In this document: piece by piece, positions 31,894-62,973 of the stretch
Layout: each line of letters begins with the position of its first letter
Numbering within the stretch: the stretch's first letter is position 1
Source of the DNA: an uncultured Kordia sp.
Lineage (GTDB): Bacteria > Bacteroidota > Bacteroidia > Flavobacteriales > Flavobacteriaceae
Assembly (NCBI RefSeq): GCF_947489565.1
Contig: NZ_CANLEA010000004.1
Location: forward strand, 124,001 to 188,000
Length of the DNA stretch: 64,000 bases
Direction: 5' to 3'
Made by a program: the position numbers and the translations under genes
The notes under the pieces: model-generated
The model's database searches: none
What the model saw: only the letters and a program-made list of their open reading frames with translations
What the model was told of the DNA's origin: nothing

Positions 31894-32438
31894 TGAACAC
31901 GAAAAGAGTACTTATTATTGGTGGACCTGGCACAGGAAAATCTACATTGATTACAGCTTTGGAAGAAAAAGGACATGTTTGCTTCCATGAAATTTCGAGA
32001 GAAGTAACAGCTGCTGCACAGAAGAAAGGCATTGAACAACTATTTTTAACACAACCTTTGCTGTTTAGCGAATTGTTATTAAAAGGTAGAATTCAACAAT
32101 TCAAAGATGCCGAAGCACTCAAGAATTCGTTCGCTTTTTACGACCGTGGAATTCCGGATGTAGCTGCATACATGGATTATACAGGAGATGAATATCCTGA
32201 TATGTTTAGAGATGCTTGTAAAGAACATTTGTATGATGTGGCTTTTATGCTAGCGCCGTGGAAAGAAATTTACGAGCAAGACAATGAACGTTACGAGAGT
32301 TTTGAACAGGCAGAAACCATTCAGAAGTATTTGACAACGGCGTATGAAAGTTATGGTTATCAACTAATTGATGTCCCTTTCGGAACGGTTTCAGAACGTG
32401 TTTCATTCATCCTAAATACACTTAATACTCACGAATGA
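31894..32438 (+). CDS. AAA family ATPase
   Basis: KRVLIIGGPGTGKSTLITALEEKG, FAFYDRGIPDVAAYMDY; start taken as TTG near 31894, ORF is open upstream. Confidence 0.75.
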
Positions 32439-34333
32439 CCAAACCGCTTGCACTTCTAGAAAAATATTGGGGACATACTTCGTTTCGTCCTTTGCAAGAA
32501 GAAATTATAAACGCGGTTATTCAACAAAAAGATACCTTAGCTTTATTACCAACTGGCGGTGGAAAATCGGTATGCTTTCAAATTCCTGCCTTGGCAATGG
32601 ATGGAATTTGTATTGTGATTTCTCCCTTAGTTGCCTTAATTCAAGATCAAGTGGCGAATTTAAAAGCCAATGGAATTAAAGCAATTGCCTTAACTGGCGG
32701 ATTGAAAACGACTGAACTGAGCGATTTGCTAGACAATTGCATGTATGGCGATTATAAGTTTTTGTACTTATCGCCCGAACGTTTACAGCAGGAAATCATT
32801 CAGGAACGCATCAAGCAAATGCCTGTCAATTTAATTGCTGTTGATGAAGCGCATTGTATTTCGCAATGGGGAAACGATTTTCGTCCAGCGTATAAAAACA
32901 TCAATACCTTACGTGAATTATTGCCAAACATACCTTGCATTGCACTTACTGCGACTGCAACGCCAACGGTTGTCAATGATATTGAAGCAAGTTTACATTT
33001 AAAAGAGGTTCAGAAGTTTCAACAGTCGTTTACACGTGAAAATTTAGCGTATACCGTGTTAGAAACTGAACACAAAATCTTGACGATCGAAAAAACTTTG
33101 CGCAAATATCCACAATCATGTATAGTGTATACGCGCAATCGAAAAAGCACCATCAGTATTCATGAAGCACTTTCACGAAAAGGATTTACGAGTGTATTTT
33201 TTCATGGTGGACTTTCGTCAGAAGAAAAAAAAGGCAATCTCCAAAAATGGTTGAGCGGAAAAGTACAAACCATTGTGGCCACAAATGCTTTTGGAATGGG
33301 GATTGACAAACCTGATGTAAAAAATGTAATTCATGTGCAATTGCCTGATAGTTTGGAAAATTATTATCAAGAAGCGGGTCGTGCAGGACGAAATGGCGAA
33401 TATGCAAACGCGATTATTCTAACAGATGCCAATGATATTGATATTTTACAAAAACAGTTTATTCATAACTTACCAAGCATCGATTTTTTAAAACTTGTGT
33501 TTAGAAAACTGTGTAGCTTCTTCCAAGTTGCCTACGGTGAAGGTTATGATACCAAACATGCCTTGGCTTTTTATGAATTTTGCAAAGCATATCAATTTCC
33601 AACACAAAAAACGTATACAGCGTTACAATTACTCGATAGACATAGCGTGATTCAGCTTTCGCAGAACTTTCATCGGAAGACTTCTTTACAATTCATCGTA
33701 GATCAATTCAATCTCATGAATTATTTAGATAAAAATGCGAACGTAAGTTTAATTACTCAAGCCATCTTACGAACGTATGGCGGTGCTTTTGAACAGAAAA
33801 TAAATATCAACACACATTTCTTAGCTCAAAAGTTAGGCATTCCAAAAGGTAAAATTAACGAGACCATTCAGCAGTTGGCAAAAGATGAAATCATTATTCT
33901 GGATGAATTGCAAACCGATGCCGAAGTCACTTTTTTAGTCGCACGTGAAGATGATAAAACCATTCATCCGATCGCAAAAGAAGTTCGACAACAAAATGAA
34001 TTGAAAAAGAAACGTGTGCAAGCTGTCATCAAATACATAAAAGATACAGAAACTTGTAAAAATATTCAGCTTCTCTCCTACTTTGGAGAAAAGACACAAA
34101 CTGCTTGCGGAATTTGCTCTGTATGTAAAACTCAAAAAACTGCAACTCCAAATAATGATTTGCAATTACTCGTAAGAGATGATGTTTTAAAAGTATTGCG
34201 ACAAAAGCCGATGACCTCAACAGAAATTTGCGTTGTTTTACCCTACAGAGAAAACCTCATATTAGAGATAATTCAATTACTTTTGGAGGCAGAAAAAATT
34301 AAATTAACAGAAACAAACACTTATACCATATAA
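32435..34333 (+). CDS. recQ: RecQ-type ATP-dependent DNA helicase
   Basis: LLPTGGGKSVCFQ, DEAHCISQWG, QEAGRAGRNGE; C-terminal Zn-binding CGICSVC. Confidence 0.92.
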   Translation: MTKPLALLEKYWGHTSFRPLQEEIINAVIQQKDTLALLPTGGGKSVCFQIPALAMDGICIVISPLVALIQDQVANLKANGIKAIALTGGLKTTELSDLLDNCMYGDYKFLYLSPERLQQEIIQERIKQMPVNLIAVDEAHCISQWGNDFRPAYKNINTLRELLPNIPCIALTATATPTVVNDIEASLHLKEVQKFQQSFTRENLAYTVLETEHKILTIEKTLRKYPQSCIVYTRNRKSTISIHEALSRKGFTSVFFHGGLSSEEKKGNLQKWLSGKVQTIVATNAFGMGIDKPDVKNVIHVQLPDSLENYYQEAGRAGRNGEYANAIILTDANDIDILQKQFIHNLPSIDFLKLVFRKLCSFFQVAYGEGYDTKHALAFYEFCKAYQFPTQKTYTALQLLDRHSVIQLSQNFHRKTSLQFIVDQFNLMNYLDKNANVSLITQAILRTYGGAFEQKININTHFLAQKLGIPKGKINETIQQLAKDEIIILDELQTDAEVTFLVAREDDKTIHPIAKEVRQQNELKKKRVQAVIKYIKDTETCKNIQLLSYFGEKTQTACGICSVCKTQKTATPNNDLQLLVRDDVLKVLRQKPMTSTEICVVLPYRENLILEIIQLLLEAEKIKLTETNTYTI

Positions 34334-37861: not shown

Positions 37862-37935
37862 GGCGAGGTAGCTCAGTTGGTTAGAGCGTCGGATTCATAA
37901 CCCGGAGGTCTCGGGTTCAATTCCCGATCTCGCTA
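37862..37935 (+). tRNA. tRNA-Met (anticodon CAT)
   Basis: Cloverleaf GGCGAGG TA GCTC...TTCATAA...TTCAATT...TCTCGCT A; CCA not encoded. Confidence 0.95.
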
Positions 37936-37951
37936 CACCTATAAACACTAG

Positions 37952-40445: not shown

Positions 40446-40727
40446 ATGATTAAAACGATTAATAATAATGATGTGATATTGATAGACCCCGAACAGGAAT
40501 CAAAAGTTGTTGCAGAACTGCTTTTATCCATGAATGCGTTTGTGTCGATTAAAACAGCAGAAATTGCCACAACATTGGATAAAGTCACGCAATACCGCAT
40601 GCGTAAAGAAAAACGTTTCCCCCAACTTTACAGACTTAACCATCATGGATATAGGAAAGCGTATAAGATACAGGATTTGAAAAACTGGCTTGAAAATCCT
40701 GTTTCGTATCAACAGTCGAATGATTAG
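40446..40727 (+). CDS. AlpA/excisionase-like small DNA-binding protein
   Basis: FVSIKTAEIATTLDKVTQYRMRKEKRFPQLYRLNHHGYRKAYKIQDLKNWLENP; ATG 40446 preceded by AAAGGAA. Confidence 0.65.
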   Translation: MIKTINNNDVILIDPEQESKVVAELLLSMNAFVSIKTAEIATTLDKVTQYRMRKEKRFPQLYRLNHHGYRKAYKIQDLKNWLENPVSYQQSND

Positions 40728-42096
40728 CTTTATTAAAAACCTTTTCGCGTAACTGCTCAAAACTTGGCACGCTCTCAACGTTTGGACTTTTGATAATAAT
40801 TTCAATGGCTTTGTTGAGAGCGTTTATTGCCATTTTTTTCTCTTTATCGTAAGAGTAATGGTCATAAATTCCTGTCACATCTGACATAGTATGATTAAGT
40901 AAAAGAGAGGCAAAATCACGCCGACCAAACAATCCCGCAACAATAGTTGCTCCTGTTCGTCGTAGATCATGCGGATAAAATTCTTTGCTAATCTGAAATT
41001 TCTTAAAATGACGCCTAAAAACTTGTGAAAGTGTCCATACTTTAAATGGTTTAATTGTTTTGTCAATAATTTGACACCTACCGTTATATCTTGCACTACC
41101 AAAGACCCAATCACTATGTCCTGTGTATTGTTTAACCTCATCAATCAGCGTCATAGCTAAGTTACTTAAATGAACACGGTGCATCCGTCCATTTTTTGAT
41201 GTAGGCATTGTCCAAACACGACTATATGGATCTACATCATCCCATTGCATATTTCGAACCTCAACAGAACGAGACGCTGTACAGAGTAAAAACTTAATAG
41301 CGAGTATTAAACTTGGCGATACGGGAAGTTTTTCAAGACCATGCCAAAATTTATAGATTTCTTTAGGGCTAAGGTGACGTTGTCGTTTTCTCTTTGGCAC
41401 ATCTACTTTAAGTCCGATACAAGGATTATTATTTTGTTCAAGTAGAAATAACCCTGCTCCATAATTAAATAATCGCTTGGTGTATTTCAATAAGTGCCTC
41501 GCTGCACTTGGTTTACCATTGTTAATCTTTGCTCTAACTGCATTCGAAATTTCTCTTGGTGTGATTTGAGCTATCGGTTTTTGCAATAATTCGTCCCCTA
41601 ATCCATTGCGAATAATATAATACTCATTCTTATATGTTTTTTTTCCTGCCTTTTTAGAATGCTCCACATATAAATCCAATAAATAAGAAACAGTTTTGTC
41701 ATCTTTCTTGTTCTTTCTAATCAATCGCTTTTCTTCTAAAGGATCGCCACCAAACTCAACAATAAATTTAATATCAGTGTGCCGTTTACGTGCCTCATTA
41801 AGCGACATCTGCGGGTATCGACCAATACTCATTCTTTTATTCTTATTTTCTACGCGATATTGGACAATCCATGTTCTTATTCCTTTTGGTGAAATACGAA
41901 TACCAAAACCATTTAATCCACGAAACCAATAAATTGTATTTACAGGTAAAGGTTTGAGTTTTTCAATCGCTAAATTTGACAGTATTATGGAAGTTTTTGA
42001 GCTGTTTTTTTGACTGTGTCTTTTCAACTTGTCTACGTACTTGTCTACTTTTGGTCTGTTATTTGATGAAATCGTATGTTTTTGCATGAAAGGCAA
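40636..42096 (-). CDS. Tyrosine recombinase/integrase with DUF4102-like N-terminus
   Basis: GFGIRISPKGIRTWIVQYRVENKNKRMSIGRYPQMSLNEAR; catalytic HDLRRTGAT, LNHTMSDVTGIYDHY. Confidence 0.92.
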   Translation of the reverse strand: MPFMQKHTISSNNRPKVDKYVDKLKRHSQKNSSKTSIILSNLAIEKLKPLPVNTIYWFRGLNGFGIRISPKGIRTWIVQYRVENKNKRMSIGRYPQMSLNEARKRHTDIKFIVEFGGDPLEEKRLIRKNKKDDKTVSYLLDLYVEHSKKAGKKTYKNEYYIIRNGLGDELLQKPIAQITPREISNAVRAKINNGKPSAARHLLKYTKRLFNYGAGLFLLEQNNNPCIGLKVDVPKRKRQRHLSPKEIYKFWHGLEKLPVSPSLILAIKFLLCTASRSVEVRNMQWDDVDPYSRVWTMPTSKNGRMHRVHLSNLAMTLIDEVKQYTGHSDWVFGSARYNGRCQIIDKTIKPFKVWTLSQVFRRHFKKFQISKEFYPHDLRRTGATIVAGLFGRRDFASLLLNHTMSDVTGIYDHYSYDKEKKMAINALNKAIEIIIKSPNVESVPSFEQLREKVFNKANHSTVDTKQDFQASFSNPVSYTLSYIHDG

Positions 42097-42383: not shown

Positions 42384-44315
42384 TTATTCAATATCTGGCC
42401 AATCTTGAGGAATTAACCTTTCTTCTCCATCTCTAGGCCATCTATATTTAGTAGCCTTTTTATACCTTTCATTTTTATGTAGATATGCATGCTCTAAAAC
42501 TATGACTTGCAAGCCATTTTGCTTTTCAACTTGATCAAATATAAAATCAAAATGCTTATTTAACGCTTCTCTATCTTCATCTATAATAATATCTTGATCT
42601 ATCTGGTCTTTTGGATAATAAGGTCTACTAACTTGATCTAAAATTATCAAACCTGGAACTGGGCTCTTTTTTATTTCAAAAAACTTATGAAACGCAAATA
42701 TCAAAGCCAAGTGAATACTAAGGTAGTTTTCATCTGAACCAATTGATGAAAAACTTTCTATTGCTCCAGAGTCATTATTGTAAAGCTCAATTGTTGGCTT
42801 TTTAGATGTAAATTTAATACTATCATCTTTGTAATGTTCGTCTATAGGTAAATAAGCTAAATTTTTTGTGGCATTATTAGAAATAAAAGTTTCTGCTTCC
42901 TCAATTCGTTTTTGTCTTTGCTCAATGCTATAATTTTCATTTATTGCATCAAACTCCTCTTTATATCTAGTCAATCTAGATGAATCAAATTCTTCTGCTT
43001 CCTTGAAATTATCGAGGTAATAAGAAACCCGCCCTATAGTCCTCAATATCATATCATTATTGTTTTTTTGTTTAGTTGCAATACTTGATTCTTTAATTAA
43101 ATTTTGAATTTGTGATTCAAGTTTAGAAGCTTCTTTGGTTTTCTTTTGTATTAGTTCATCTAACTCAATAATGTAGCCATCCAACTTCGGCTTATATTCG
43201 TCAACAACTACACTCTCTTTTTTCAGTATGTCAAATGATTTTTCTATTTGAGAAATAATATCAGACGTTTTCTCTAAATGAGAATCACAAATAGGACAAT
43301 TAGATCTTTCTAAATTAAATAAATCAATTACGTTCAATTTTGATGCTTGCTTTTTCGTTACAGTTTTAAATTTTGAACTACTTGATTGATTTTGAATGGC
43401 TAAAGTTCTTTTTCTCTTTAGCCTATTTATCTCAGATAAAATTGAAGATTTAGAAGACTGTAATTCATAAAGTAATTTCTCATTTTCAAAAATAATCTTA
43501 TTAGGTTGCCAGTTCAACACACCTTTTAAAGTATTTTTTATTGAGTTTACATCATCTACAAACTCTTCTTTTTTTAATAACCCCACCTGAACAACTTCAT
43601 TAAAAAGCATTTTTAAACTCTCAATGGATTGCTTTTTAAACTGTTCAAATGTTGATTTTTTCTTTTCTTCAGTCTCAATACCTCTTTTTAAGCCTTTTAA
43701 TTTTTTTAATGCCTGTAACTCTTCAAGGTCAATCGCATTCAAAAAGTAAGGTAATGACGGAATTATATGCTTAGCTGAATTGACATCGTCTAATCCGTGA
43801 AGTAAATTTTTTCTACTATCAATTACTTCTTTATCAAGAAAAAGATATGGAGTTAACTGTCTAATAGAAATACTGTTTATCTTTGAACTTTCATCTTTTT
43901 GGTAGTCCTTAAAATTGATTAAACCAAAACGCTCAGACAGTAATTGTTTTGCTTGAGTTGAATTAATCTTGCCTTTTAAATCTTTGGAATTTTCAGGTAT
44001 TTCAATATCATTACCAATTTCAAGAAACATTTTACTTGAAGCATTAGAAGATTTTTGAGAAATCTCTCTAACAATCAATATTTCTGTACTTCCTTTTATT
44101 AGCTTAATACCAACAAAAGATAATTTCTTTTTAATTAAATTGGAAAGAGCAATACTGGAAGAGCATAAACAATAATCAATAGTCTCAATTATATATGTTT
44201 TACCAGTTCGAGAAGCACCAGTGATAATTGTTACGTTTTCAGGTTCAAATTCTAAGAGCCTGTTTTGACCATGTTGACTATAATATACTACATGACTAAT
44301 ATTCCATCTACTCAT
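42384..44315 (-). CDS. ABC-3C system ATPase, DUF3732 domain
   Basis: Walker A GASRTGKT, central CPICDSHLE, long coiled-coils, terminal SxGSDENYLSIHLALIFAFHKFF and LIILDQVSRPYYP. Confidence 0.85.
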   Translation of the reverse strand: MSRWNISHVVYYSQHGQNRLLEFEPENVTIITGASRTGKTYIIETIDYCLCSSSIALSNLIKKKLSFVGIKLIKGSTEILIVREISQKSSNASSKMFLEIGNDIEIPENSKDLKGKINSTQAKQLLSERFGLINFKDYQKDESSKINSISIRQLTPYLFLDKEVIDSRKNLLHGLDDVNSAKHIIPSLPYFLNAIDLEELQALKKLKGLKRGIETEEKKKSTFEQFKKQSIESLKMLFNEVVQVGLLKKEEFVDDVNSIKNTLKGVLNWQPNKIIFENEKLLYELQSSKSSILSEINRLKRKRTLAIQNQSSSSKFKTVTKKQASKLNVIDLFNLERSNCPICDSHLEKTSDIISQIEKSFDILKKESVVVDEYKPKLDGYIIELDELIQKKTKEASKLESQIQNLIKESSIATKQKNNNDMILRTIGRVSYYLDNFKEAEEFDSSRLTRYKEEFDAINENYSIEQRQKRIEEAETFISNNATKNLAYLPIDEHYKDDSIKFTSKKPTIELYNNDSGAIESFSSIGSDENYLSIHLALIFAFHKFFEIKKSPVPGLIILDQVSRPYYPKDQIDQDIIIDEDREALNKHFDFIFDQVEKQNGLQVIVLEHAYLHKNERYKKATKYRWPRDGEERLIPQDWPDIE

Positions 44316-44788
44316 AATTGAAGCCCTAAATGATTATATATTGTTTTTATAGAATTCACTTGCCCTAACCATTTGCCTAATCTATCAGCCGATTTAAATA
44401 AACTCTCTAGTTCAAGGCTTTTATTTTTCCCAACATTTTTTTCTATAGGAATCAACAATCCTGAACTATCCAAATGAAGAGTCTTTTTAAATATGGCAAA
44501 CTCAATTGCTGGTTTTAAAAATTCATTGGATTCATTTATTCTTGATGTGAGATTTAATTGTATTTCAGGATTATTCTCTATCCATCTAAAAAAGCCAGTT
44601 TTTATGTTAGTTCCTCTAAAAGTTTTTTCTATTTCATAAGATAAAACAAGTGGTAAAGGCAGAATAAGAAGCGGGAAAGGAACTCCCAATTTTGCTTCAC
44701 TATGATATCCTTTACAAAAATTAAAAATTATCAATGAGCAAAATGCTGGGTTAGTTTCAGCAAAAACATCTATACTAATTTTATTCAT
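44312..44788 (-). CDS. ABC-3C system middle component
   Basis: Overlaps the ATPase gene by 4 bp; NPAFCSLIIFNFCKGYHSEAKLGVPFPLLILPLPLVL. Confidence 0.8.
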   Translation of the reverse strand: MNKISIDVFAETNPAFCSLIIFNFCKGYHSEAKLGVPFPLLILPLPLVLSYEIEKTFRGTNIKTGFFRWIENNPEIQLNLTSRINESNEFLKPAIEFAIFKKTLHLDSSGLLIPIEKNVGKNKSLELESLFKSADRLGKWLGQVNSIKTIYNHLGLQL

Positions 44789-46001
44789 TTTCGTCTTCTG
44801 AAATTAATGATTTATAATCACGATGCCAACCAACTCTCTTATCTTTTGATAGCATTTGATAACTACCTCGAATTAAATCGGGATTTCTATAGTTTCTTGA
44901 AATACTTTTAACTTGATTGATGGCTTCTGTATGACTCCAGTCTAGCAAAGATCTTCCTACTGATTTTTTCTCTTCTTCTAAAATATTCTTATCCACTTCA
45001 TCAAATTTATAAGACCATTCATCTATCAATTTTTCATCATACTTTTTTAACTTGGGAATAAGAGAAAAATTCTTCATCCAATTTTCTCTTTGAATCCTTG
45101 CTTTAACTTCTGTATTAAAAGAACGCCTTTTTTGAGTTTCAGAAGCTTCAATTATATCTAACTGTGCTAAATGAATTTTATGATTCCAATCAGGAGCAGG
45201 TAATTCCATTTCATCAATATCATCTGTAAAACCATCACTATATAACTCTGAATTTTTTTTGGAAATAAATTCTTGTAATTCACTAAAATATATGCACTCT
45301 TTTCTTTCGCGAGTTAATGACCTTACCGCCTCCCTGTCCCACCAAGAGATGATTGCTTCTGCAAGGCTAATTTGATTTTCTTTTTTTGTGCTTTTTCTAA
45401 TTTTTTTAATCACTTCATTTTGTGATTGATCTATAGAAAATGTATCAGTATTAATTCTAATATTTTTTAATAAGTTTTTTCTTTTTTGCTTATTTAATTC
45501 AGTAAAAGCTTCACAGCCTTTATACTTTTTACCATAAGGTAATAGCTTTTCTTTTTCTCCTTTTTTCCGTAAATCAAGATTTTCTTTTTTTACTTTAACT
45601 CTTTCACTGATAACTCTGTTCGCTTCATTGAGTAGCTCTTTTTCAAGTTCATCTCTATCACTTGATTCTTCTTTAAGAACATTTAAAACACTATCATCAT
45701 TAACAGATGCGACAGTCGAAAGTGTAAAAATACCATCTCTTGGATCATTTGATTGTATAAAATCGCACCAGACTTTTAAGGTGCTCCATAAGTCATCATG
45801 TTTTATAGAAATCTTAGAACTAATCGTTTTATGCTTTAACTGTGTTAAATTTTTTGTATCACCGTCTTCATGATAAACATCATCTAAGGTCTCCAAGCTA
45901 ACAAAAGCATCATCGTTTTGAGAGTCCAAAAGACATATCAACGCATATATTGCCTGATAATAATATCCTAATGCTGGTCCAATAGCGCTATGTGAGCTCA
46001 T
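44781..46001 (-). CDS. ABC-3C effector component with Cap4/DUF4297-like nuclease N-terminus
   Basis: GPALGYYYQAIYALICLL...VSLETLDDVYHEDGDTKNLTQLKH (E-D-QxK pattern); overlaps middle component by 8 bp. Confidence 0.75.
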   Translation of the reverse strand: MSSHSAIGPALGYYYQAIYALICLLDSQNDDAFVSLETLDDVYHEDGDTKNLTQLKHKTISSKISIKHDDLWSTLKVWCDFIQSNDPRDGIFTLSTVASVNDDSVLNVLKEESSDRDELEKELLNEANRVISERVKVKKENLDLRKKGEKEKLLPYGKKYKGCEAFTELNKQKRKNLLKNIRINTDTFSIDQSQNEVIKKIRKSTKKENQISLAEAIISWWDREAVRSLTRERKECIYFSELQEFISKKNSELYSDGFTDDIDEMELPAPDWNHKIHLAQLDIIEASETQKRRSFNTEVKARIQRENWMKNFSLIPKLKKYDEKLIDEWSYKFDEVDKNILEEEKKSVGRSLLDWSHTEAINQVKSISRNYRNPDLIRGSYQMLSKDKRVGWHRDYKSLISEDENE

Positions 46002-47540: not shown

Positions 47541-50153
47541 TTATGACCCCACCAGCTCCAACGCACCTTTTCGGTCACCAGATTGTTTGATCGCGTTAAG
47601 AAGTTCTTGTTTATCATCGGTATAGATTGTGACCGCCTCACGACCTCTAGAAACGCTGACATAGAATTGATTTTGATTGCTTGCAGGAAAAGCAGATGCG
47701 GGTTGCGCAATGATAACTTTATCAACAGTTTTACCCTGTGCGCTGTAAGATGTACTGGCGTAAGCATAATCAAAATTTCCGTGTCTTTTATCTAATAAAT
47801 ATTCAACACGTCTTTTGCCCGAATTTCGATATGCTTTAACAACGCCTTTTGATGTAAAGCCCCTAATGTTTAAAACTGTTCCGTTATCAAGACGTTTCCC
47901 ATTAAGATCACGCCCGTTTTTATTAATACGAATTTCATCGCCTTTGGCGAGTTTAACTGCTCGGGTTTTATAGAGATCAAAATTTTTAGCATCGGATAGA
48001 TTAAGCGTAAAATTTGTGCCTTGATTGTCCTCCCCTATAATTTCATTCTCCCCGATATCAACAACTCTTAACACACTCCCCTTAGTTATTCCTTTTAGGT
48101 TGAAATGGCTTTGAATAATGAGCCCTTGATAATAATTTCTGGTATCTTGCTTTTGTGCCACGCTGTAATGGTAATTATCAAAGACTGTAACACTGCGCTC
48201 TTTCTTTTCAATATATCCTTTTACTTGTAAAACATCACGAATATCAAGGTTGAGTGTTTTGACTTTTTCTCGCATTGGCGTGATAACCAACATGGATTTT
48301 TTCTCGGTTTTGGCTTCTAAATAATCATCTGATATGGCTTGATTAATTGTTGCGTAATCAGCTTCATGGATTGCGCCCATTTTATCAAGATGTTCAAATC
48401 CAAGCATGATATTGCCTTGACTGATTTCATGGATGGCGGTTTTGTATTCAGCTATTTTCTGTCGATAAATCGTATCAACCGAAGCATAAGGTACACGTCC
48501 GATTTCTTGCAAAAGGCGTAACGCATCGCCTCTTTGCACGGCTGTGTGTTGTTTCGTGTCGCCTGAGAGCATTAAACGCAATTCTAATTTTTGTGCAAGC
48601 TCAAAAAGTTTCAACATATCATCCGCGCCGATCAGTCCTGCCTCATCAATCCATACAACTTGACCTTTGATCTTTTCTTGGATTGTTTTATCAATTAATA
48701 ATTTTGATAATGTATCGGCTTGCTCAAATCCCTCATTCTTTAAGACGTTTCTTGATGCTTCTGCTGTCGGTGCAAACAGAAAGATTTCTTTACCCTGTTT
48801 TTCAATCTCTGGAACAATGGTTTTGAGAAGTGTGGTTTTGCCTGTTCCTGCACCGCCATTGATAATATTGACCATATTTCTTGATTGCATTACATAGCGA
48901 ACTGCTTTTTGCTGTTCATCGTTAAGATGATTGAGATGTGAAACATCAAACCGATTTTTTAATGCGGGGAGTGTTCCGATTGTTGATTGGGCACGTTCAA
49001 TGATTTGCTTTTCTTGGCTCTTAATAGTTTCCGTTGTGCAATAGATTTGATGATCAGCCGTGACTTTAAATATTTCATCTCTATTATCCAAAGCTTTATC
49101 AATCTGTGCCAATGAGATATTAGAATTATCAATACTGTATTGATAAGCTTGTGAGAGGATTTGTGTTTGACGCTTTACAGAAGAATGCGCAAAACAATGT
49201 TCAACTGCGTGTTCTATTGTTTTCTCAACTGTTAGGTTACTATCTGTTGTTGGTTCTTCTTCACTTGTGCTAGGAGTGATGTTTTCTTTCAATAGTTCAT
49301 CATGCCAAATCTCTTGTAATTGGGATATTGTCCGGCTGTTATCTTTTTTCTCTCTGGTCTTTGCACCTAATTTATCCAACATCTTAGGGTTTGTGATGTT
49401 GTTATCATTCGCCACTTGTCCAATTAAATTGGTGCGTTTTGAAAAAAACTCAATCGCTTTGCTTGGAATAACTGTCATTTCAAAACCATGTTTGGTTTTA
49501 CGCAAGTCATAGCCTAATGCGCCTAGCTTATTGGCTAATCGCTTATGAAAGCGCGCTTGATAATACGGCATATCTTTTCGGATATAGTAAAACTGCGCCG
49601 CTTTATAACGATTTTCTTGTGTGTCAAAGCTTAGGTTCATCGTCACACAATGAATATGATAATGCGGGTCTGGCGCATGTCCAGTAACAGCTCGTGCTGT
49701 CCAATGCGGAAAGTTACACCAAATCATTTCACCTGTGCGTCTGTCTTCGTTTCTGCCATTGGTACGCACACGCACGAACATATTTTCTTGCATCTCGCAC
49801 ATGGTTTTATAGACACTGTTATCAACCGCTTGTTTGATGTTTTCATCAGGGCACAGACACAAAAAGATTGAAACAGATTTCGGGCAATGAAAACTGATAT
49901 CATTACCTATACGTCTATCTGGCATATTGCGTGGTGTTAGGTTTTCGCCTGTTAGGGGATGAATATTGTCACATAAATTATGAAAGATATGTTTGTCGAT
50001 GGGTTTGTTTTCTAACCCCAAACGCTTGGCTATTTTACCATTAAACACGCCTTTGGTTTCAACATCTTCGATATAGTAATCCGCTTTTGCAAGACTGTCT
50101 TGAAAATACTTTTTAGCTTGGTTGGCATTTTTACTTTGAAATATTCGTATCAC
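47541..50153 (-). CDS. MOBF-family relaxase/helicase (TraI/TrwC-like)
   Basis: DISFHCPKSVSIF, three-His motif APDPHYHIHCVTMN, helicase Walker A NGGAGTGKTTLL; GTG start with GGAG SD. Confidence 0.9.
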   Translation of the reverse strand: MIRIFQSKNANQAKKYFQDSLAKADYYIEDVETKGVFNGKIAKRLGLENKPIDKHIFHNLCDNIHPLTGENLTPRNMPDRRIGNDISFHCPKSVSIFLCLCPDENIKQAVDNSVYKTMCEMQENMFVRVRTNGRNEDRRTGEMIWCNFPHWTARAVTGHAPDPHYHIHCVTMNLSFDTQENRYKAAQFYYIRKDMPYYQARFHKRLANKLGALGYDLRKTKHGFEMTVIPSKAIEFFSKRTNLIGQVANDNNITNPKMLDKLGAKTREKKDNSRTISQLQEIWHDELLKENITPSTSEEEPTTDSNLTVEKTIEHAVEHCFAHSSVKRQTQILSQAYQYSIDNSNISLAQIDKALDNRDEIFKVTADHQIYCTTETIKSQEKQIIERAQSTIGTLPALKNRFDVSHLNHLNDEQQKAVRYVMQSRNMVNIINGGAGTGKTTLLKTIVPEIEKQGKEIFLFAPTAEASRNVLKNEGFEQADTLSKLLIDKTIQEKIKGQVVWIDEAGLIGADDMLKLFELAQKLELRLMLSGDTKQHTAVQRGDALRLLQEIGRVPYASVDTIYRQKIAEYKTAIHEISQGNIMLGFEHLDKMGAIHEADYATINQAISDDYLEAKTEKKSMLVITPMREKVKTLNLDIRDVLQVKGYIEKKERSVTVFDNYHYSVAQKQDTRNYYQGLIIQSHFNLKGITKGSVLRVVDIGENEIIGEDNQGTNFTLNLSDAKNFDLYKTRAVKLAKGDEIRINKNGRDLNGKRLDNGTVLNIRGFTSKGVVKAYRNSGKRRVEYLLDKRHGNFDYAYASTSYSAQGKTVDKVIIAQPASAFPASNQNQFYVSVSRGREAVTIYTDDKQELLNAIKQSGDRKGALELVGS

Positions 50154-50349: not shown

Positions 50350-51021
50350 ATGAAAAAACAAACTTTAATCATTGTATTATTATTAATCGGATTACAAACG
50401 ATTTTAGGACAAACCACAGAACAACAAAGGCGTGCTGATGCTTATTATCAAAATCAACAGTCTAGAGAACAAAAATCTAAATCTTGGAATTGGTTATTTA
50501 ATTCTTCAAATACTAAGTCAAATTATAGCAAAAACAATCTTGTTAAATGGGAATATAAAGATGGTGGTTGGTATACTGGTCAAATAAATTCTAGTGAATA
50601 TGTATCAGGCTTTGGAACTACAAAATATGCAGATAATAACAGCTATTACTCAGGTCAATTTTTTGATGGAAGAAAAAATGGAATTGGAGCTTATTTTTGG
50701 GCAAGTGGAAGCAAGTTTTTTGGTATGTATAAAAATGATTCCATAACAGGATTAGGTATATATATTTGGAGTGACAATTCAATTTATAATGGTTATTGGA
50801 AAAATCATAAAAGAGAAGGGTTCGGAATTAATGAATGGATAAATGGAAACCATGATGACAAAACATTAATCAAATATGTAGGAGAGCATAAAAATAACAT
50901 TCGACATGGATATGGAATAAAATATTATAAAAACGGAACTTATAAATCAGGTATCTGGATAGATGATGTTTTAAGTAAGGAACTTTCAAAACTTGAGGTC
51001 TTAGAAGCATTAGGATTTTAA
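50350..51021 (+). CDS. Secreted MORN-repeat protein
   Basis: Signal peptide; repeated YxGxxxxGxxxGxGxxxW units. Confidence 0.85.
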   Translation: MKKQTLIIVLLLIGLQTILGQTTEQQRRADAYYQNQQSREQKSKSWNWLFNSSNTKSNYSKNNLVKWEYKDGGWYTGQINSSEYVSGFGTTKYADNNSYYSGQFFDGRKNGIGAYFWASGSKFFGMYKNDSITGLGIYIWSDNSIYNGYWKNHKREGFGINEWINGNHDDKTLIKYVGEHKNNIRHGYGIKYYKNGTYKSGIWIDDVLSKELSKLEVLEALGF

Positions 51022-51160: not shown

Positions 51161-52021
51161 ATGACAAAAGATATAGTAATAATAGAAGATGATTTAATGA
51201 TGAATCATTATATAAAAGAAAATGTATTATTTAGCTCATTTGAGTCAAAATTAAATGTAGCTTCATTTACAAATTATGATGAATTTATAAAAAATATAGA
51301 TATTTTAAATAATAATTCAATATACATATTAGATTATATAATAGGTGGGAAAAATAGAGGATTAGATATATATAATATAATAAAAACAAAAAATAAGACC
51401 GCTAAAATCATATTCTATTCTACATTTCAATTAGGTTCAAAGGTCTTTCAAAACATGATCCCTATAAATGACAAAGATAATATTATGTTTTTGTCTCCTA
51501 TGGAGGGCCCAGAAAAACTTACTCAATCTATTGAGGTATTTACAAAATTAATTTATGATGAAAATAATAATAACAAGTTATTAGCAGTTAAAAATGATAT
51601 TGAAATAATAAATTCAAATTTATTAGAATACCTATCAAGAAACCCAAAATCAATTTATAACATTAATCCTAGAAAATTTGAAGAGCTAGTAGCACAGCTT
51701 TTTAAATATGAGGGTTATTATGTTGAACTAACTAAGGCATCCAATGATGGAGGAAAAGACATTTATGCATATAAGAAAGACTTTTTTAATGAGCAATTAT
51801 TTGCTGTTGAGTGTAAAAGATTTAGTGAAAATAACAAAGTAGGAAGGCCAATCTTACAAAAATTATATGGAGTAGTAGAGCATGAAAAATTAACTGGAGG
51901 GATCCTTGTAACAAGTTCTTTTTTTACCAAGCCAGCAAAGAAGTTTACAAAGCAACTTAGTAATCGAATATTTTTAAATGACTATTATAATTTAATGGAA
52001 CTGATTGCAAAACATAAGTAA
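51161..52021 (+). CDS. Receiver-domain / Mrr-type restriction endonuclease fusion
   Basis: N-term IVIIEDDLMM...YILDYIIGG (D58) receiver pattern; C-term FEELVAQLFKYEGYYVELTKASNDGGKDIYAYKK...FAVECKR nuclease motif. Confidence 0.85.
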   Translation: MTKDIVIIEDDLMMNHYIKENVLFSSFESKLNVASFTNYDEFIKNIDILNNNSIYILDYIIGGKNRGLDIYNIIKTKNKTAKIIFYSTFQLGSKVFQNMIPINDKDNIMFLSPMEGPEKLTQSIEVFTKLIYDENNNNKLLAVKNDIEIINSNLLEYLSRNPKSIYNINPRKFEELVAQLFKYEGYYVELTKASNDGGKDIYAYKKDFFNEQLFAVECKRFSENNKVGRPILQKLYGVVEHEKLTGGILVTSSFFTKPAKKFTKQLSNRIFLNDYYNLMELIAKHK

Positions 52022-53453: not shown

Positions 53454-53825
53454 ATGAGTGATTTTGTTGAAACACCAGAAAGATTAAAAACCTATAATAC
53501 GGAAAATATTGAATTCAAAGAAAAGGCACGTAAACTCGTTATCAAAAATTTAGGCTTTGAACCTAATCTCAAAGCTTCACTAGGAATCGAGTTGTTAATT
53601 AGAAAATTAATAAAAAACGTTGAAACTGGAAAAATTTCAAAAAAAGATTTTAAAGAATGTTTAGAAGTATTTTGCAATGCAATTCGTGGAATGATTAGAA
53701 GACGTGTTCCAGAACAAGTTTATCTCTTAGAGAAAAAACGTCCTAGCGTTCCCTATCTTTATCTTGGACTTGGTTTTCTCTCTCTTTGTCTTCTTGGATG
53801 TCTAGTATTTTTTTTACTTGGCTAA
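53454..53825 (+). CDS. Small protein with C-terminal membrane anchor
   Basis: C-terminal YLYLGLGFLSLCLLGCLVFFLLG; upstream GAGAGG. Confidence 0.55.
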   Translation: MSDFVETPERLKTYNTENIEFKEKARKLVIKNLGFEPNLKASLGIELLIRKLIKNVETGKISKKDFKECLEVFCNAIRGMIRRRVPEQVYLLEKKRPSVPYLYLGLGFLSLCLLGCLVFFLLG

Positions 53826-54816
53826 AGGCATCGTCAATCGTTCGCGCACGTGTAATACCATCGTCATTGTCATTAAATTCACTTTTTTTCTTTTCCCAAC
53901 GTTCCTCTTTAAAATCTTGAATAAGTTTATCAAATCTGGCACTGGCTTGTCCGATTTCATCTTTTGTAACCATGTCAAAAGCATTCTCAACCATCACTTT
54001 TTTCTTGTATTGTTGGTCTCGCTTTTGTTCGGTTTTCTTTTCTTTAAGCTGTGTTTGATCTTTTTTTAAATCTTCAACTTTGGGGAGTTGCTTTAAAATT
54101 GGTTGCAGTTTTTCCTCTACGTGCTTTTTCTTCTCGCCTGTAAAGCGCATCAGTGAATGGACTTGGTTTTTATCACTGACCAAGACAACACCACGGCGAC
54201 CGATGGCTAAATCAAAACCTGCTTTTTTTAAAGCTTGTTGTAATTCTTTTGGATTGGAATGCTGTTGATAGAGTTTTTTTACGCGGGCTTTCAATTGCTT
54301 GGGTGTATAGCCATCACGAATGGTTTGTTGGCGTTCATTCATCGTGTCCCAATTTGAACCAAATTCAGCTTTGAGTTGTTTGTGCTTAAAACGTTTTTCA
54401 AGATCACGTCCTAGCTTTTTATGAATGTAATAATCATTTTTAGTGTCAATGACTTTTCCCTGTTCAATATCGGTGCGTTGCCACACAACATGAATATGCG
54501 CACGCCCACCTTTTTCATGATAAACAACCGCACGCGGTTGATCATTTAATCCCAAGCGTTTTTCCATTTCATCCACGCTGTATTGCCATTGTTGCGGTGT
54601 CATGGTTTCACCCATGGCAGGATTAATTTGTGCATGATAAAGCCCTGTTTTGGCTTTGGTCATCTTTGCGGTCAGTTCCATGTCTTTAAGAGCTTGTGTC
54701 AAGTCTTGTGTGGCTGTGCCCGTAATCTCAACAACCACAATACGTTCATTATCATCTTTGAGTAGATGATTGGCTAAACTTGCGCCACCTGAGCGCTTGC
54801 CTCCTTTACAGATCAT
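53743..54816 (-). CDS. MOBP/MobA-type relaxase (mobilization nuclease domain)
   Basis: GKRSGGASLANHLL; RAVVYHEKGGRAHIHVVWQRTD. Confidence 0.9.
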   Translation of the reverse strand: MICKGGKRSGGASLANHLLKDDNERIVVVEITGTATQDLTQALKDMELTAKMTKAKTGLYHAQINPAMGETMTPQQWQYSVDEMEKRLGLNDQPRAVVYHEKGGRAHIHVVWQRTDIEQGKVIDTKNDYYIHKKLGRDLEKRFKHKQLKAEFGSNWDTMNERQQTIRDGYTPKQLKARVKKLYQQHSNPKELQQALKKAGFDLAIGRRGVVLVSDKNQVHSLMRFTGEKKKHVEEKLQPILKQLPKVEDLKKDQTQLKEKKTEQKRDQQYKKKVMVENAFDMVTKDEIGQASARFDKLIQDFKEERWEKKKSEFNDNDDGITRARTIDDAFSQVKKILDIQEDKERENQVQDKDRER

Positions 54817-57280: not shown

Positions 57281-57949
57281 ATGTTTCCTTTTTTCCACGA
57301 TAAAAAGCGCCGTCGTAAAAATAGATTAAACAGGCTATTTAAGATGATGATTATTGCAATGGTATTTGTTCTAGCTATTATTAAGCTTGATAACCATCCA
57401 GTTTCAAATATAAGTTTTATAACCTTTCTTATTCTCTTTTGTTTTGTCTTTTATAAAATTTATAGAATTGATCAATTCTACAAATATGCAGAAGAATTTG
57501 AAAATAATGATTCATGGTTGCCGAAATACTTTGTAATTGAAAAGCCATCAATGCTTAAAAAATTAGAACAACAAACTTTTACTCAAACTTTAGATAGCAT
57601 TGGTAATAAAGCTTTTACCATAGCTATTGAAAAAGATTTAGCTTATCTCCATGAACAAAAGGCAAAAATTGAATTAAAGCAAAAAGAATGGCAAACCATT
57701 CCTATACCAAATGATAAGGAGTTTTGGGATATTAGGGAAAGAAAAAAGCTAGGAAGACGTACAGCAATATATTTCAACCATGAACGCTCCGAAATTCAAA
57801 GAGAGTTTATTCGAAAAGTTAGCTTGTGCGATCAAATGATTGCACAAGCGAATAAAATCCACAATCAGCTGATTTCTAAAGGACATGAAGTTCAAAATAA
57901 TCATCGTAATATCTCAGGTATAGACGGTTTAAATTCAATAGAATCATGA
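57281..57949 (+). CDS. Membrane protein, paralogue 2 of the T4CP-linked pair
   Basis: TM segments; YAEEFENNDSWLPKYFVI; RRTAIYFNHERSEIQREFI. Confidence 0.75.
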   Translation: MFPFFHDKKRRRKNRLNRLFKMMIIAMVFVLAIIKLDNHPVSNISFITFLILFCFVFYKIYRIDQFYKYAEEFENNDSWLPKYFVIEKPSMLKKLEQQTFTQTLDSIGNKAFTIAIEKDLAYLHEQKAKIELKQKEWQTIPIPNDKEFWDIRERKKLGRRTAIYFNHERSEIQREFIRKVSLCDQMIAQANKIHNQLISKGHEVQNNHRNISGIDGLNSIES

Positions 57950-59319
57950 AAGGTGTTTATATTGGTCAAGACAAAGAGGGAAAATCCTATGCTTATGATA
58001 AAGATGTCCATATCTTAACCATCGCTCAATCGGGTGCAGGGAAAAATACAGGACTCATAATGCCGAATTTACTTCATGATGCTTTCAAAGGCACAAAAAT
58101 CATCCTTGATTTAAAAGGCGAAAATTCAGCCGTGTGTTCGCATTGGAAAGAAAAAGAAAATTTAGGCAAAACCTTTCGCCTTAATCCTTGGAATATTTTT
58201 GATATGCCGTCCATCAATTATAATCCGTTTTGTTTACTCGATGCGTATAATGACAGTATTTATGAAGATTGTTTAGACTTTGCATCGGCTATTATTCCCG
58301 AAAAGGGTAATCAATCCGATACAGGCGAGCATTTCGATGAAATGGCACGTGATTTTATTGGTTCATTTTTACTCTATATGGTTGTCTCTGATTACCCAGA
58401 AGTACCCACGCCATCGAGTTTATACGAAAGTTTGATTATCAACCTTTCATCCATTGATGGCTTTCGCTCACTCTGTGATCAAATGATGGCTGTCCATCAT
58501 CCCGATGAAGCCATTAAACGAGCGATTAAATTATCGGCTCTTTCTATGATGGGTGTGACAACGGGAGGGGAAAATGGCGAATTTAGAGGCATAAAAACCA
58601 CCATTGCCAAAGCTTTAAAAGCATTTCGTGGAAAAATACTCTCAATGGCTGTTGATGATGAAGCCGAGCATTCAAGAAATTTACTTAATGAACTCTTTCA
58701 ACAAGACGAATTGCATAACGATCTCTATATTTCTTTTCCACAAAATAGAGTGAATATTGCCCGCGTTTGGTTAAGGCTTGTTTTAACATCATTTATAAAA
58801 AGGCTTATTGACACCCCCCCTTTAAAACCTGTTTTATTTGTCCTAGATGAATTTCCGCAATTGGGAACATTCAATTTGATTAAAAATAATGCGGCGTTCT
58901 TACGAGGTTACGGCGTTCGATTTTGGTTTATCTGTCAAAACCTCGATCAATTAGAAAATAATTACGGCAAAAGTGGACGCCAAGAAATTGTTGAAAATTG
59001 TGGTGTTTCACTCTTCTTTAATGTCAAAGATGAAACAGCCAAATATGTTTCTGAAAAACTCGATAAATATTCCAAATCTATTGAAAACTATAATACAAAT
59101 GAATATCGCACCAGTATTGAACGCTACCGTAAAACACGTTCGGAAGTCGAACAGGAACAAGGAAGTTTCGTTTTTATCGGGCAAAATGAAGCGGTTATAT
59201 TTGAGCGTGTACCCTATTTTAAAATGAAAAATTTAGAACACAGAATTGCGCCTAATCCATTATTCTATGGAATAAAAGCCTATCACAATTATATTAGAGA
59301 AAACAAAAGCCACGATTAA
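57946..59319 (+). CDS. VirD4/TraG-type coupling protein
   Basis: LTIAQSGAGKNTGLIMPNLL, IILDLKGEN, VLFVLDEFPQLGTF, RFWFICQNLDQL. Confidence 0.9.
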   Translation: MKGVYIGQDKEGKSYAYDKDVHILTIAQSGAGKNTGLIMPNLLHDAFKGTKIILDLKGENSAVCSHWKEKENLGKTFRLNPWNIFDMPSINYNPFCLLDAYNDSIYEDCLDFASAIIPEKGNQSDTGEHFDEMARDFIGSFLLYMVVSDYPEVPTPSSLYESLIINLSSIDGFRSLCDQMMAVHHPDEAIKRAIKLSALSMMGVTTGGENGEFRGIKTTIAKALKAFRGKILSMAVDDEAEHSRNLLNELFQQDELHNDLYISFPQNRVNIARVWLRLVLTSFIKRLIDTPPLKPVLFVLDEFPQLGTFNLIKNNAAFLRGYGVRFWFICQNLDQLENNYGKSGRQEIVENCGVSLFFNVKDETAKYVSEKLDKYSKSIENYNTNEYRTSIERYRKTRSEVEQEQGSFVFIGQNEAVIFERVPYFKMKNLEHRIAPNPLFYGIKAYHNYIRENKSHD

Positions 59320-62316: not shown

Positions 62317-62787
62317 TTAGAGAGTAAATGACACTAAATTGTCATCAGCCATAGAGTAATATTCATCATCCGTGACAATCAAATGATCCAAAATACTGAT
62401 ATCGAGATAATGCGCGCCTTGGACAATTTTTCGCGTAATGGCTTTATCCGCTGAACTTGCCTTTAATCCACCCGATGGATGGTTATGACCTAAAATAATT
62501 CCACAAGCACGTGCTTTGAGCGCAGAGGCAAAAATCAACTTTGGATCAACAGTAACACCAGAAACACCACCCTTAGCAATCGGCACAATACCCATACATT
62601 GATTATTGCGATCAAGAAGCAAGATTTTAAATTCTTCAAACAAGTTAATGGTCATATCATCCCAATTAGCACGGAATAATTGATAAGCGCGTAAAGCACT
62701 ACTTATTTTGGGGCGCTCATTCGCCTTAACTTTGCGCTGATATTGCAAGGTGATTTGGCTGATATTCGTGTGAAATTCTTTTGTCAT
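62317..62787 (-). CDS. RadC/JAB-domain protein
   Basis: ACGIILGHNHPSGGLKASSADKAITRKIV; start MTKEF at 62787. Confidence 0.9.
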   Translation of the reverse strand: MTKEFHTNISQITLQYQRKVKANERPKISSALRAYQLFRANWDDMTINLFEEFKILLLDRNNQCMGIVPIAKGGVSGVTVDPKLIFASALKARACGIILGHNHPSGGLKASSADKAITRKIVQGAHYLDISILDHLIVTDDEYYSMADDNLVSFTL

Positions 62788-62973
62788 GAAGAAACTATGA
62801 CACAAAACAAACAATCTAAATACGCACAGAAAGTCTTATAAAAAAATATGTTTATGAGAAAAATTTTACTCTTATAAAATATTTTCTCTCACAAAGACGT
62901 TTTTGACTATATTAGCTAAAGAATTTATTTCTCCCTAAAGCCTAACTTTTACAATTTAAAACAAAAGTTATTT

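Follow-up and report, generated by a model that had tools for sequence, protein, structure and literature searches.

The analyzed window (the whole stretch of DNA considered here, 64 kb long) spans C4:124001-188000 of a genome of 6.4 Mb, which its gene content and the hits in the phylum sample suggest to be from Bacteroidota. The window contains a tRNA-Met gene that is the site of a mobile element of about 28.6 kb bounded by the first two copies of a 44-bp direct repeat: the left attachment site at the 3' end of the tRNA gene (37893..37936, + strand), and a second copy located 28.5 kb away, 2.4 kb past the right end of the window (L163:2421-2464). A third direct copy lies another 21.6 kb or so to the right (L164) and suggests that integrative elements are arranged in tandem at this one tRNA; a 445-aa ORF begins about 50 bp past this third copy. 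A tyrosine integrase gene is present near each end of the element, including that at 40636..42096 (- strand; Pfam Phage_integrase and Arm-DNA-bind_3), which is followed by a complete Lamassu-like operon, LmuB-LmuC-LmuA (42384..46001, - strand; PADLOC E-values of 5e-89, 3e-14, and 2.5e-43). The mobilization genes encode a MobF relaxase/helicase (47541..50153, - strand; NCBIfam MobF, E = 5e-47, above the cut-off), a MobP-type relaxase (53743..54816, - strand; NCBIfam TraI/MobA(P), E = 2e-14, under the cut-off, along with matches to plasmid relaxases), and a VirD4/TraG-type coupling protein (57946..59319, + strand; best NCBIfam E = 3e-32, under the cut-off); a RadC-like JAB-domain gene is located toward the element's right end (62317..62814, - strand). 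Relaxases of two types, MobF and MobP, are thus carried by a single element, and the MobP relaxase was found only in the host among the 301 family genomes searched. With its direct repeats, integrases, and two relaxases, the element bears out the mobile context supposed in the initial annotation.

Between the two relaxase genes are two genes of a different composition, one for a protein that has MORN repeats and probably a signal peptide (50350..51021, + strand; Pfam MORN) and one for the protein that is the subject of this analysis, denoted REC-Mrr (51161..52021, + strand). The GC content of these genes (28.9% and 24.6%, respectively, versus 36-40% in the mobilization genes) suggests that both are cargo, acquired separately in the case of REC-Mrr; the repeats flanking this cargo are just short, low-identity pairs. 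The MORN-repeat gene, whose product is likely exported, is directly upstream of REC-Mrr on the same strand, with a gap of 139 bp.

The REC-Mrr gene is a single ORF of 286 aa and contains all the motifs from which a receiver domain fused to an Mrr-type nuclease had been proposed: E9-D10-D11, YILDY (D58), MFLSPMEG (S112 and P113), FEELVAQLF, DGGKDIYAY (D196 and D200), and FAVECKR (E217 and K219). The region of aa 166-282 (51656..52006, + strand) matches the Mrr_cat family (PF04471) with E = 3.1e-28 and 98.7 bits, compared to the curated Pfam cut-off of 21, and its catalytic residues D200, E217, and K219 are intact; together with E174, they occupy invariant columns in alignments with relatives. 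Judging from the sequence, it is beyond doubt that the C-terminal half of REC-Mrr is an intact Mrr-type PD-(D/E)xK nuclease, as originally annotated, and DNA cleavage by this protein is predicted from the catalytic motif. The nuclease is preceded by a linker (about aa 132-165; 51554..51655, + strand) which, as the alignments indicate, is conserved in relatives together with the nuclease unit from about aa 145 onward. The PADLOC matches of REC-Mrr, Type IV restriction models included, are confined to the nuclease part; PADLOC yielded no whole-protein match to a described anti-phage defence system, and NCBIfam produced no match. No domain that would read DNA or modified bases was identifiable in REC-Mrr with Pfam.

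The N-terminal region (about aa 3-131; 51167..51553, + strand) corresponds to a divergent receiver domain of the (beta-alpha)5 type, as indicated by Pfam, structural modelling, fold matches in the PDB, and a shuffle test. The Response_reg family (PF00072) matches aa 5-90 with E = 8.1e-5 and 23.2 bits, missing the curated cut-off of 30.2, and this receiver ranks 100th among the 101 Response_reg matches in the host genome. A profile built from other receivers only scored REC-Mrr at 14.1 bits, whereas none of the 4,801 scored shuffles of its residues exceeded 13.2 bits, and in single-sequence searches, a receiver from an unrelated genome and REC-Mrr matched each other in both directions. Structure prediction, the check proposed along with the initial annotation, returned a receiver fold. 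The AlphaFold model of the whole protein from the single sequence had a pLDDT of 38, with the secondary structure elements already in the receiver beta-alpha order, whereas the model of residues 1-143 built with an alignment was a (beta-alpha)5 receiver with a pLDDT of 86.6 and a pTM of 0.83; the underlying alignment consisted of 13 receivers from viral contigs, so that this model tests compatibility with the fold and is not an independent discovery of it. The receiver was modelled without the nuclease, a joint alignment of the two parts having placed the receivers onto the nuclease. The PDB matches of the residues 1-143 model were response regulators, among them NtrC1 (E = 7.9e-6), TrrA, and PhoB. 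Taken with the profile scores, the model indicates that the N-terminus of REC-Mrr is a genuine, even if divergent, receiver, so that the proposed fusion holds, with both domains in one ORF. Assignment to the cRec or Response_reg_2 families was also considered and rejected, PF00072 being the sole receiver-type family among the Pfam matches with E up to 1.

Most of the receiver active site is recognizable in the alignments. The acidic pair following beta1 (E9-D10-D11; 51185..51193, + strand; the D10 column is at least 90% conserved), the phospho-acceptor position at the end of beta3 (D58; 51332..51334, + strand), and the conserved Thr/Ser position at the end of beta4 (S87-T88; 51419..51424, + strand) are represented, with D10/D11, D58, and S87 falling in the expected receiver columns, as the initial annotation had it for the acidic residues. 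The Lys-Pro pair of receivers is replaced by S112-P113 (51494..51499, + strand). The initial annotation read this as a substitution of S-P for K-P, which is correct as regards the loss of the lysine but depends on the alignment as regards the substituting residue: S112 occupies the lysine site when the proline is used as the anchor, and P113 does so when the sequences are aligned on the beta5 phenylalanine (F110). Under either alignment, the conserved lysine after beta5 is absent. Because this active-pocket lysine has been called ‘invariant’ in typical receivers (PMC4395418), normal phosphorylation-driven switching of REC-Mrr is doubtful.

The surroundings of the gene point in the same direction. 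No HATPase_c kinase is encoded within about 66 kb of REC-Mrr, and hence none in the window or in the element; the nearest HATPase_c genes, both outside the element, are about 66 kb to the left and 77 kb to the right, in line with the initial statement that no histidine kinase is found nearby. Neither is there a second receiver elsewhere in the window. REC-Mrr thus lacks the nearby cognate histidine kinase that defines a canonical two-component system. A genuine phospho-switch, in which a host kinase or acetyl phosphate would phosphorylate D58, so that the receiver dimerizes and activates the nuclease in a PorX-like manner, would make use of the retained D10, D11, D58, and S87, and could draw on cross-talk with the kinases of the host, given the 93 HATPase_c matches in the 6.4 Mb genome; furthermore, PorX, a receiver-phosphodiesterase of Bacteroidota, provides a precedent (PMC11320123). 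The missing pocket lysine, the absence of a kinase from the element, and the place of this receiver among the two lowest-scoring ones in the genome argue against such a switch, and we regard it as unlikely. Accordingly, nothing positive was found for the suggestion of phospho-control in the initial annotation, and the missing lysine and partner kinase make it less likely; ordinary phosphorylation by a histidine kinase is probably not what drives REC-Mrr. Loss of the lysine would also be consistent with loss of switching altogether, that is, with a restriction nuclease always active on the right DNA, either modification-dependent (Type IV-like) or unspecific, in which the receiver merely holds the dimer together and transmits no signal. 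The match of the PADLOC Type IV restriction models to the Mrr domain alone fits this possibility, but REC-Mrr has no identifiable domain for reading DNA or modified bases, and the acidic pocket, needless in a purely structural module, is retained; we consider constitutive activity quite unlikely.

We searched for relatives of REC-Mrr in 396 genomes of the phylum, 395 of the class, and two further phyla (239 and 240 genomes), as well as in plasmids, phages, GTDB species contigs, and IMG/VR contigs; the receiver part alone was searched against 400 family genomes and plasmids. None of these sets contained a match spanning both receiver and nuclease: a few hits were to unrelated receivers or were partial, and every other one was confined to the nuclease part; the receiver part alone had no match in plasmids at E up to 0.1. 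Pattern scans with the single protein against viral and genome contigs likewise detected no relatives. When a receiver profile was run over 111 Mrr ORFs (a set that includes 5 copies of REC-Mrr and, among the others, some genes more than once), the receiver region was matched in REC-Mrr alone and in 0 of the 106 others. Thus, no second receiver-Mrr protein was found in these sets and, therefore, there is no conservation that would show selection on the fusion; the comparison of neighbours proposed in the initial annotation had no homolog of the same architecture to draw on.

The close nuclease subfamily itself is sparse, being represented in 10 of the 395 class genomes at E<=1e-20. Its members share the sequence from about residue 145, comprising the linker and the beginning of the nuclease (‘PRKFEELVA’), and differ in their N-termini. 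In a Gemmatimonadota MAG (L074:2-847), the Mrr unit is fused to a TIR_2 domain (E = 5.5e-10), and in an Ignavibacteriales MAG (L053:1214-2329), to a NusG-like domain (E = 1.3e-4); other nucleases of the subfamily carry cysteine-pair N-terminal modules, and a recurrent unnamed module of about 130 aa with a ‘DKDW.Y.IL’-like motif is found in L055-L064, L066, L077, and L080 (Pfam scans of two of these, L056 and L062, gave no match for it). Given the conserved nuclease unit and the differing N-termini, the receiver is yet another module attached to a common effector. Hence this kind of protein, a sensor-swapped Mrr effector, is already known, and what seems to be new, as far as the sequence comparisons go, is the receiver version, represented by one instance; we found no description of a receiver-Mrr fusion in the literature searched, which did not extend to subscription papers and InterPro architecture lists.

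The gene neighbourhoods of the nuclease relatives were scanned for up to three genes on each side of 16 relatives (70 proteins). These flanks include Type I methylases, a Type I restriction enzyme, and a C5 methylase; Thoeris ThsB, DarT/DarG, and AbiH; and a reverse transcriptase, TraG, and TraO. In a rough comparison in which models were counted overall, without per-protein counts, the flanks matched 170 PADLOC models versus 20 for the control of 30 chromosomal proteins from the window; the latter 20 are mostly DpdF-type helicase models, presumably matched by a RecQ-like helicase (32435-34333). Relatives of the nuclease, then, often adjoin defence or mobility genes. With Lamassu on the element itself and restriction-modification, Thoeris ThsB, DarTG, AbiH, and conjugation genes next to the relatives, the defence-like setting envisaged in the initial annotation finds support, and the outcome named there as refuting, homologs consistently outside defence or mobile contexts, is the opposite of what we observe for the nuclease relatives. 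The location of the REC-Mrr gene between two relaxase genes would also suit a nuclease that serves the element itself, in transfer, stabilization, or exclusion of sister elements, rather than in phage defence, all the more so as the extra 44-bp att repeat, by suggesting tandem integration, makes competition between elements plausible. This appears very unlikely, considering that the GC content of REC-Mrr, below that of the mobilization genes, speaks for separate acquisition and that the relatives have other neighbours in varied genomes and plasmids.

The explanation that we favour, with a probability of roughly 0.45, is that REC-Mrr is a stand-alone sensor-gated DNA nuclease, which an integrative and mobilizable element carries for defence. 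DNA would be cut by the Mrr-type domain as the effector, and the N-terminal receiver would act as the input switch, in the place where close relatives carry TIR, cysteine-rich, or other modules. With the active-site lysine gone and no accompanying kinase, the trigger is most likely something other than phosphorylation by a histidine kinase: the acidic pocket might bind a ligand, or the signal might be a metal or a protein contact with a product of the invader. Such a trigger would alter the pairing of receivers and so bring two nuclease domains together, with the invading DNA as the target. We infer gating by the receiver, activation by pairing, and the nature of the target from the domain logic and the genomic context. 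A bolder proposition, which we put forward tentatively and consider somewhat doubtful, is that a lysine-less, kinase-independent receiver would sense the invader in a DNase defence system encoded by a single gene, so that receivers would join TIR and other domains as inputs of Mrr effectors.

Comparison with the closest known systems delineates what is distinct about REC-Mrr. Mrr_cat nucleases (including PADLOC candidate family PDC-S02 and the Type IV mREase_IV models) resemble it in the nuclease fold, catalytic motif, C-terminal position of the nuclease, and defence or mobile contexts, but those examined, REC-Mrr excepted, are without a receiver, which is the N-terminal module here. The TIR-Mrr, NusG-Mrr, and unnamed-module-Mrr proteins (L074, L053, L055-L066) share with it the nuclease unit, the linker, and the single-gene layout, and differ in the input domain. 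PorX is likewise a receiver fused in Bacteroidota to an enzyme that cleaves phosphodiesters, a PglZ/alkaline-phosphatase-like phosphodiesterase, the pairing of which can also be triggered by zinc (PMC11320123); however, its effector fold is unrelated to Mrr, it has a cognate sensor, PorY, and it functions in type IX secretion. Receivers of conflict systems that work independently of kinases, cRec among them, lack a histidine kinase as REC-Mrr does (PMC7824862, PMC7159879, PMC8195603), and have been predicted to be nucleotide-responsive switches (PMC8195603) or cyclic-phosphate enzymes (PMC7824862); unlike these receivers, REC-Mrr has only a canonical Response_reg match among the Pfam receiver families and a direct DNase fusion, and no NAD/ADPr-processing neighbour was seen. 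Response_reg_2/HEF_HK pairs share the link to restriction, with a receiver-like domain tied to restriction-modification systems (PMC8011034), but there the receiver is a protein of its own beside a kinase-like gene, whereas REC-Mrr has a fused nuclease and no kinase-like gene. If the favoured explanation is correct, a part of two-component signalling would have been recruited, within one polypeptide, as the immediate trigger of a defence enzyme that cuts DNA, and REC-Mrr would offer a compact system for studying how the kinase-less receivers of conflict systems switch, on which the literature consulted offers only predictions (PMC8195603). It would also bring to light a family of Mrr effectors, each encoded by one gene and differing in an exchangeable N-terminal module, whose members lend themselves to side-by-side testing.
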